A DNA stretch of 12,337 nt from Candidatus Peregrinibacteria bacterium RIFOXYB2_FULL_32_7 (lineage in GTDB: Bacteria > Patescibacteriota > Gracilibacteria > UBA1369 > GWF2-33-10), in contig MFXJ01000016.1 of NCBI GenBank assembly GCA_001787465.1, forward strand, positions 1-12,337, given 5' to 3'. The notes below the pieces were generated by a model, which worked only from the letters and a program-made list of their open reading frames with translations, ran no database searches and was not told the DNA's origin. The position numbers and the translations under genes were made by a program. Each line of letters opens with the position of its first letter. The stretch's first letter is position 1. This document shows, piece by piece, positions 10,323 through 11,741 of the stretch.

Positions 10323-11741
10323 TCAATAAATTCTTTTCAGATCTTTCCAGAATTCCGGATAAGTCTTGTTCACGCAATCAGGATTTTTAATTATTATTCC
10401 AGGAATTTTGGTCCCAAGAACAGCAAAACACATTGCTATTCGATGATCATCATAAGTTTCTATTGTAGCTCCGTGTAATTTAGTTGGATTTCCATTAATC
10501 TCTAAACCATCATCTAATTCTTTTACTTCGCAACCAATTTTTTGAAGCTCAGTTGCGAGAGCTTTTAGTCTGTCTGTTTCTTTGATTCGTAAATTGGAAA
10601 GTCCCGTTAAAATGCTTTTGCCTTTGGCAAGAGAACAGAGAATGGCGACGGTCATAGCGGCATCAGGCAGATCGCAGAGATTGATGTGGCCTAGAGGATT
10701 TAAAGATTTTGGTCCTGTGATTTGGATGCCGGTAGAGACACATTGTTTACCCGCCGTAGCTTTAGCGAAGGAGGGCAATGTGTCTCTACGGCATCCCATT
10801 TTTTCAATTACATCGATAAATTTAATATCGCCTTGAAGGGAATCATATTTAGCATTTTCTACGGTAATTTCTGATCCGGTAGCGGCGGCAATTCCAAAAA
10901 AGTAGCTGGCTGATGATGCGTCTGCCTCAATTTTATATTCTCTTGAATAATATTTTTGTTCAATTGGAATGATGAATTTTTTATAGTTTTTATTAATTAC
11001 GTTAACGCCGAAATTTTTCATAATTTCAATAGTGATATCAAGATAAGGTTTGGAAACTAAATCGCCAATAACTTCGATGGTTACAGGATTTTCTGCGTAT
11101 GGGGCGGATATCATGATGGCTGAAAAATATTGGCTAGATTTATCACCTGGGATTTTACAAGTTCCGCCTTTAAGACCAGTTTGGTGGATGAGAAGAGGAG
11201 GGCAGTTTGAAAATTGTGAATTGCCCGCCAGACCGATTGTTAATATTTGTTTGTTGTCGGGCTGGTGAATTGTGAATTGTGAATTTTTTGATTTGTTTGT
11301 AATTTGTTGAATATAATCAATTTTTGCACCTAATTGTCTAAGGCCTTCGACAAGATCTGAGATTGGACGTAAATGCATTCTTTCACTTCCATCTATAATT
11401 TTGTCTGAATCTTTGGATAAACACATGGCGGCGGTGAGGAAACGAGTAGCAGTGCCGGCGTTACCTAGGTAGAGATGTTTTGTTAGGGTATCTTTACCTT
11501 TGATTGTCTTTAATCCATTTGTTCCTTTTATCTCAAAATTATTTTTATTTTGTTTAATTTCTACTCCGATTTGTTTCAAGGCTTCAGCCATGTATTTGGT
11601 ATCATCAGAAATAAGCGCATCTTTTATGATTGATTTTCCTTTAGCTAAAGCTGAGATTATGAAAGCTCGATTGGTGTAGGATTTTGAGCCGGGGACTTTC
11701 AGCGAGGCTTTGATTGGAGATGTGAAATGCTTAATTAACAT
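10323..11741 (-). CDS. aroA: EPSP synthase (3-phosphoshikimate 1-carboxyvinyltransferase) with two in-frame insertions
   Basis: The enzyme joins PEP to shikimate-3-phosphate, the sixth shikimate-pathway step. Active-site elements are all visible: GSKS (K20), LGNAGTATR (92-100), MHLRP (R125), KSSQYFSA (201-208), LPDAAMT with the catalytic aspartate D360, IKETDRL (E388), DDHRIAM (431-437) and VNKTYPEFW (K459). At 472 residues it is about 45 longer than E. coli AroA (427). The excess maps to two repeat-derived insertions: residues about 146-177, between GAKIDYI and NCPPLLI, and about 317-337, between EKMG and GIQITG. Both fall between conserved elements rather than in them, so the enzyme is probably functional. 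It has an ATG start, no Shine-Dalgarno sequence and a good promoter just upstream. The stop is TGA, with TAA two codons later. It is probably the first gene of aroA-unknown-aroK. Confidence 0.95.
   Translation of the reverse strand: MLIKHFTSPIKASLKVPGSKSYTNRAFIISALAKGKSIIKDALISDDTKYMAEALKQIGVEIKQNKNNFEIKGTNGLKTIKGKDTLTKHLYLGNAGTATRFLTAAMCLSKDSDKIIDGSERMHLRPISDLVEGLRQLGAKIDYIQQITNKSKNSQFTIHQPDNKQILTIGLAGNSQFSNCPPLLIHQTGLKGGTCKIPGDKSSQYFSAIMISAPYAENPVTIEVIGDLVSKPYLDITIEIMKNFGVNVINKNYKKFIIPIEQKYYSREYKIEADASSASYFFGIAAATGSEITVENAKYDSLQGDIKFIDVIEKMGCRRDTLPSFAKATAGKQCVSTGIQITGPKSLNPLGHINLCDLPDAAMTVAILCSLAKGKSILTGLSNLRIKETDRLKALATELQKIGCEVKELDDGLEINGNPTKLHGATIETYDDHRIAMCFAVLGTKIPGIIIKNPDCVNKTYPEFWKDLKRIY
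10724..10796. repeat. 73-bp palindromic element inserted in frame in aroA
   Basis: The left arm (10724-10745, GGATGCCG, one extra G, then TAGAGACACATTG) and the right arm (10776-10796) are exact reverse complements over 21 bases apart from that single extra G. The 30-base centre (10746-10775) is over half G+C and forms an imperfect hairpin itself (CCGCCGTAGC / GCGAAGGAGGG around TTTA). On the aroA strand it encodes CRRDTLPSFAKATAGKQCVSTG without a stop. It resembles a non-autonomous palindromic (MITE- or REP-like) element tolerated inside a protein. Confidence 0.8.
11212..11285. repeat. AATTGTG-bounded repeat insertion in aroA
   Basis: AATTGTGAATTG (11212-11223) recurs at 11268-11279, where the 7-base unit runs on for about two and a half copies to 11285. 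The 44 bases between contain the CCAGCCCGA/TCTGGCGGG pair seen in the surface-protein gene (here 11257-11265 and 11224-11232). The segment encodes aroA residues about 153-177 (NSQFTIHQPDNKQ to LAGNSQF), beginning and ending with the same NSQF peptide and absent from ordinary AroA proteins. Confidence 0.65.

Follow-up and report, generated by a model that had tools for sequence, protein, structure and literature searches.

Near one end of the analysed window, a stretch of 12,337 nucleotides that forms one contig of a 1.11-Mb draft genome (116 contigs, 74% complete), the minus strand carries aroA, and the EPSP synthase gene is interrupted at two places by sequence that stands apart from it. The best named match to the MnmA of this genome, at 74%, comes from Candidatus Peregrinibacteria, and the genome is accordingly taken to be probably one of the Patescibacteria. 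The features are as follows.

10323..11741, minus strand: aroA, the host gene, encoding an EPSP synthase of 472 aa (PF00275, E 1e-111; PDB EPSP synthases, best E 4e-96)
10724..10796, no strand assigned: the whole nested palindrome, whose minus strand codes most of CRRDTLPSFAKATAGKQCVSTG (C317-G338)
10724..10730: outer layer, arm 1, GGATGCC on the plus strand and GGCATCC on the minus strand, within G-I-Q codons; a 7-bp inverted run with the opposite flank
10731 (10731 or 10732): lone unpaired G where the outer arm meets the GTAG palindrome, from the fold; the mnmA copy has an equal offset
10732..10745: left half of the GTAG palindrome (28 bp), ACA variant; ACA arms also occur bare at C10:8195 and C17:3247 of the same genome
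10746..10775, minus strand: hairpin A (30 nt), lying precisely on the dyad centre of the 28-bp palindrome
10755..10770, minus strand: 16-nt core of hairpin A, CTTCGCTAAAGCTACG
10776..10789, no strand assigned: right half of the 28-bp GTAG palindrome
10790..10796: outer layer, arm 2, GGCATCC on the plus strand and GGATGCC on the minus strand, codons G-C following M
11211..11303, minus strand: a second, different AroA insert, about residues 147-177 (NSQFTIH...), missing from the same-family relative G001 and containing direct repeats AATTCACAATTCAC

The 73-bp element consists of three layers, in which hairpin A splits the 28-bp GTAG palindrome and both lie within 7-bp inverted flanks of aroA, giving on the plus strand the order GGATGCC, one G, GTAGAGACACATTG, 30 nt, CAATGTGTCTCTAC, GGCATCC. 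The 21-base inverted repeat described in an earlier, sequence-only reading of this DNA is borne out, as 10732-10745 and 10776-10789 are complementary at 14 of 14 positions with 30 nt between them, and the outer arms GGATGCC and GGCATCC extend the pairing to a 21-bp stem; among nine inverted pairs reported within 100 nt this is the sole exception to a set of eight self-overlapping palindromes, and the null probability of an inverted run of at least 7 bp in the outer arms is 0.002. At the centre, the 5-nt arms of hairpin A, read on the minus strand, are CCCTC (10771-10775) and GCGGG (10750-10754), with one mismatch; a palindrome with no hairpin A at its centre can be seen for comparison at C69:219-246. 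Folded as single-stranded DNA, the 73 nt of the plus strand reach -26 kcal/mol against a shuffle mean of -7.7 (z = -9.1), and none of 200 shuffles folds as well. The element contains 40 G+C in 73 bases, as compared with 0.35-0.39 in the overlapping 500-base windows, and it reads through with no stop within the 472-codon frame, both as had been read from the letters. The one-base difference between the arms was also correctly seen, and it is the one G left unpaired between the outer arm and the GTAG palindrome. The suggestion that this G records a frame-correcting change is not supported, since the mnmA copy has the identical one-base offset at the same junction, and it is further weakened by the 58-bp unit being no multiple of three and by the apparent loss of about 16-19 nt of native aroA loop, an estimate from the modal loop length of homologues.

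Further copies, on which the idea of a mobile-like element had been made to depend, are present in the genome: with the aroA copy included, 25 related copies were found, with DNA matches down to E 6e-22, comprising seven composites (the 58-bp unit), nine bare 28-bp palindromes and nine cases of hairpin A alone. The composites come from a DNA search of the genome followed by inspection of the loci and the bare palindromes from a single-arm search, and the single-arm matches C68:4291 and C110:6287 and two partial arms of an array on C17 are left out of the count. The element is a composite, in which hairpin A occupies the centre of a 28-bp palindrome, it is present in several copies, and exactly 30 nt lie between the palindrome halves in all seven composites. 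The arm variants GACGC and GACAC each occur both bare and composite, three of the nine bare palindromes are decayed, and the loci L366 and L004, which share the extended arms TGTTTAAATT and AATTTAAACA, resemble an empty and a filled version of one another. The array (C17:2642-3274, L360) holds repeated and partial 28-bp palindromes, and a single O-antigen-ligase-like gene contains two of these in frame. Outside this genome, the exact outer arms match seven GTDB stretches, none with Rickettsia in its title, and no match was found in viral contigs. That the copies were produced by the assembly is extremely improbable: the draft is in 116 contigs and a run of N lies near the mnmA copy, but every copy has its own flanks, and the same AroA, TrpCF and MnmA are recorded from longer contigs (15319, 22938 and 36365 against 12337, 6897 and 6094 bases), which may share reads with this draft.

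The copies lie in frame in ORFs of at least 100 aa in six of seven composites, seven of nine bare palindromes and three of nine cases of hairpin A alone, in total 16 of 25 copies in 15 ORFs; a 104-aa ORF at L373, outside the family scan, and an 83-aa ORF at L017 are not counted. For 14 of these 16 the host ORF has a Pfam family above cut-off, the other two being L006, without a family, and L375, whose ORF is outside the scan. The composites are hosted by AroA, TrpC-TrpF, MnmA, a HAD hydrolase, an FtcD-like protein and one ORF without a family, with the seventh upstream of a metallo-hydrolase gene, and their sequence is read in four different translations among these hosts. Bare palindromes are found in an O-antigen-ligase-like protein (two copies), 6-phosphogluconate dehydrogenase (gnd), MutL, a methyltransferase, a PEP-utiliser-domain protein and one ORF outside the scan; the remaining two are the copy in the uncounted 104-aa ORF and one that closely precedes a dprA-like gene on its upstream side. 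For hairpin A alone, the in-frame hosts are AlkD-, QueG- and HsdM-like proteins. Of the 16 copies that contain the GTAG palindrome, 13 lie in frame within ORFs, and most such copies lie in frame within unrelated conserved genes. The element-bearing ftcD-like ORF (L008, on C19) also has a pentapeptide-like repeat (PF00805) fused near its start.

Alignment of AroA with its homologues answers the second concern of the sequence-only reading, namely that relatives might share a conserved sequence at these residues, as the homologues examined are without it. From the cysteine of MGC to the next isoleucine column, 92 of 120 sequences (query included) have 7-8 residues as against 21 here; the corresponding spacing in TrpC is 5-7 residues in 106 of 120 (query included) against 22, and the MnmA segment is 9-10 residues in 91 of 120 (query included) against 28. 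Judged by these alignments, the element lengthens a short loop, variable among homologues, in all three proteins. Relative to the modal loop lengths, a 58-bp unit adds 13-18 codons, which points to a probable loss of native loop, about 4-19 nt as estimated from the loop lengths. In an AlphaFold2 model of AroA with a mean pLDDT of 91, residues 321-340 have block means of 53 and 69, and the insert is predicted at low confidence between strands 318-321 and 339-342, which fits a loop; the second insert has block means of 57-64 over residues 151-180.

The same AroA loop is long in most of the nearest homologues as well: it exceeds 9 residues in P0002-P0005, P0007 and P0008, six of the seven next-best sequences, the exception being P0006, and the loop sequences of P0002 and P0003 give the impression of being repeat-like. 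In P0005 and G001 the loop contains a DUF559 domain (PF04480, E 4e-28) between 16-nt inverted repeats, so that this one loop in one family has received at least two clearly unrelated inserts, the present element and DUF559 between its repeats, and probably more. At L052 (G001:C16), DUF559 is in frame in the equivalent loop and bounded by CCCCTTGATAAAGGGG and CCCCTTTATCAAGGGG, and a short DUF559 remnant containing a stop lies at L071 (C22:6948-7049) of the element's own genome. P0002, P0003 and P0004 have extra residues near AroA position 80, and P0002 also near 146, which indicates that AroA varies at several loops in close relatives. An intron, an intein or ribosomal bypass, by which the segment would be removed or skipped at the RNA or protein level to leave a normal AroA, is very improbable; the hairpin is strong enough to bring such a device to mind, but the insert is open in frame, the window has no Rfam match at gathering score, hosts and reading frames vary among the copies, and the same loop in relatives holds other in-frame sequence.

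Hairpin A belongs to a family that extends across the phylum. Its core CTTCGCTRAAGCTWCG occurs in 114 of 379 genomes sampled from the phylum and the reversed-pattern control in none of the 379, while a looser hairpin A pattern is found in 12 of 99 genomes of relatives against 2 of 99 for its control. At least 120 stretches of viral contigs match the core, although 16-mers may match by chance. In 163 distinct copies at cellular loci with complete flanks, viral loci being left out, the five stem pairs next to the core covary, with 0.79-0.90 paired against 0.29-0.77 when the right flanks are permuted (z 8.6-15.1, values too high to be read as probabilities because copies within one genome are related). 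Beyond 5 bp there is no clear excess of pairing, pair 12 alone showing a small one (z 2.9), and the stem is therefore taken as part of hairpin A. The varied stems had also been considered as palindromic targets or inverted target copies, and this was rejected because the pairing ends at 5 bp over the 163 copies. In the wider set, copies of hairpin A fall in open frames less often than random points of the same loci do (27/161 vs 642/1782). Hairpin A starts two nt past a tRNA gene in all seven copies checked at six loci chosen for that look (L013 with two, L017, L092, L100, L104 and L115), and the CCA of the tRNA thereby forms part of the stem. A few copies have a direct copy of the arm following CA(A/G)G.

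The family is also linked statistically with Y1 transposases. Across the 379 genomes, 75 have both hairpin A and Y1_Tnp, 39 the hairpin only, 102 Y1_Tnp only and 163 neither, that is, Y1_Tnp occurs in 75 of 114 genomes with hairpin A and 102 of 265 without (odds ratio 3.1, p 1e-6, figures that ignore shared ancestry). This raises the question of whether we are dealing simply with REP sequences mobilised by a REP-associated tyrosine transposase (RAYT), with the GTAG end as the REP tag, which we regard as somewhat doubtful. The published REPs (PMC3733652, PMC8266576) are, in the passages available, short hairpins with a terminal GTAG, some with conserved mismatches, that are cut by such enzymes, and REPs inside genes are found in several species (PMC3733652); the arms here likewise start with GTAG and finish with CTAC, and hairpin A, with its imperfect conserved core, covarying 5-bp stem and association with Y1_Tnp, resembles a GTAG REP hairpin, in which conserved mismatches are often present. 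However, in those passages GTAG lies ahead of the palindrome, whereas here it is paired with CTAC within the stem at both ends. In addition, REPs are described there as mostly intergenic (PMC8266576), unlike the GTAG-palindrome copies here, and a search for Y1_Tnp (PF01797) in the element's 74% complete genome gave 0 matches. With its tag paired and the transposase not found in this genome, the element is not assigned to the GTAG REPs.

At the intact loci, the host sequence outside GTAG...CTAC is itself inverted, as short flanks specific to each locus. The inversion was spotted by eye in four intact composites and scored afterwards, intact status and the ends of decayed units being the analyst's judgement; the inverted runs measure 7, 5, 9 and 10 bp in these composites and 6, 4, 2, 10, 5 and 6 bp in six intact bare copies, and a run of at least 4 bp is thus present in nine of ten intact copies, as against 5.5% of random sites (p about 5e-11). 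A fairer test uses the bare copies, which were found after the pattern had been noticed, and there five of six have such a run (p 3e-6); with L366, whose arms are those of L004, and two array copies set aside, it is two of three (p 0.009). None of six decayed copies has a run of at least 4 bp, the run at L005 being 0, nor has any of 13 outer palindromes in other genomes. One outer palindrome, at L067 on a Desulfuromonadales contig, has 9-bp inverted arms CAAGATGGC and GCCATCTTG 6-9 nt away. No strain of this species without the insertion came to light, and codon counts of the window did not tell native from copied arms.

Two explanations of these flanks are to be weighed. Quasipalindrome correction, which is template switching at a hairpin, could have acted after insertion, turning one flank into the reverse complement of its partner and thereby lengthening the palindrome, and we consider this possible. 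The high frequency of flank runs in intact copies would be expected from it, the arm changes are symmetric (ACA/TGT), and the partial repeated arms at C17 resemble fold-back products. Additionally, GGGATGC stands at the place of the aroA arm 10790..10796 in G001, which is without the element, so the other arm may be a copy. Against this, both outer arms of aroA code residues common in homologues and the residues from both arms also fit in trpC, suggesting that both arms are native, while the equal extended arms of L004 and L366 mean that such arms can travel with the element.

Alternatively, and slightly more plausibly, the flanks may be short inverted repeats that the target already had, with the element entering the tips of native hairpins as hairpin A entered the centre of the 28-bp palindrome. 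This agrees with the constant 30 nt of hairpin A exactly between the halves of all seven composites with two arm variants, both of which are also found bare, with L366 as a seemingly empty counterpart of L004, with the fit of both flanks to homologues in aroA and trpC, and with the estimated loss of native loop. It is opposed by the lack of pairing past the 5-bp stem of hairpin A elsewhere, by which insertion at a centre is not general for hairpin A, by the possible origin of the composites from a single event, and by the lack of flank runs in the outer palindromes of other genomes, although L067 has its more distant inverted arms.

Among known systems, the likeness to Rickettsia palindromic elements (RPEs) proposed from the sequence holds for behaviour, as several dispersed copies are present, 16 of 25 are in frame, and the sequence is absent from the AroA, TrpC and MnmA homologues. 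RPEs are palindromic repeats dispersed over genic and intergenic sites, and conserved protein genes carry them as in-frame fusions (PMC2229807, PMC10969869), and the passages available from these papers contain no mention of inverted host flanks, a trait of the element here. They describe RPEs as 105-146 bp long with a 12-bp TIR (PMC2229807), unlike the nested 28- or 58-bp element of another phylum. Since it is shorter than the RPE range of about 105-150 bp and the likeness shown is one of behaviour, we do not file it as an RPE. Wolbachia palindromic repeats, represented here by a cited title, are grouped with RPEs as the closest systems. Like the enterobacterial RU/ERIC MITEs, described in part of PMC2759123 as small mobile repeats with reading frames that form fusions with host ORFs, the element has terminal inverted repeats (14-bp arms), but those MITEs are 103-168 bp long, and two of the three listed in the passage of PMC2229807 have a target duplication, whereas inspection by eye of four intact composites revealed none at L001, L002 and L004, and GGCGCC at L003 is ambiguous as a direct repeat because it is its own reverse complement. 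The review passages regard an isolated in-frame fusion between a small repeat and a host ORF as "not unusual" and present Rickettsia as exceptional in the number of such fusions.

Based on these findings, we propose that the aroA insert is, with good probability, a copy of a small palindromic repeat element that contains no gene itself, is scattered over the genome, resides in frame in protein genes and is presumably mobile. We envisage that copies would arrive as folded single strands and enter at hairpin tips, and would survive only where a loop of the host protein takes the peptide without a stop or frameshift; the moving activity might be supplied in trans by a Y1 (HUH) single-strand transposase, or the copies might come from template switching during replication. 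The 39 of 114 hairpin A genomes without Y1_Tnp, and its absence among matches in this genome, count against supply in trans, and a coding habit is counted against by the hairpin A family not being enriched in open frames and by hairpin A alone being in frame in only three of nine cases here. The enzyme probably gains nothing from the encoded peptide. Going further, the element could represent a class of palindromic DNA that spreads through hairpin tips, a hairpin having entered the centre of a palindrome and the composite the tips of native inverted repeats in genes, where the nest is translated; we put this forward as speculative and on balance unlikely.

The lineage, the nesting at an exact centre and the inverted flanks look new. 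In a literature search of titles and abstract beginnings, with subscription literature mostly outside its scope, none of the matches listed deals with coding palindromes in Patescibacteria, the peptide SFAKATAGK had no match, and the matches to "gtagagacgc", judged by their titles, concern other subjects. Because of its exact-centre nesting and inverted flanks, the element allows hairpin-tip targeting to be tested against template switching as the mechanism of insertion. Many in-frame repeats in one distant lineage of small genomes suggest that the habit is a recurrent one, perhaps in dense genomes, and provide a second system for asking how selfish DNA adds peptides to working enzymes. If spread through hairpin tips were true, it would repeatedly remodel enzyme loops in the small genomes of Patescibacteria.
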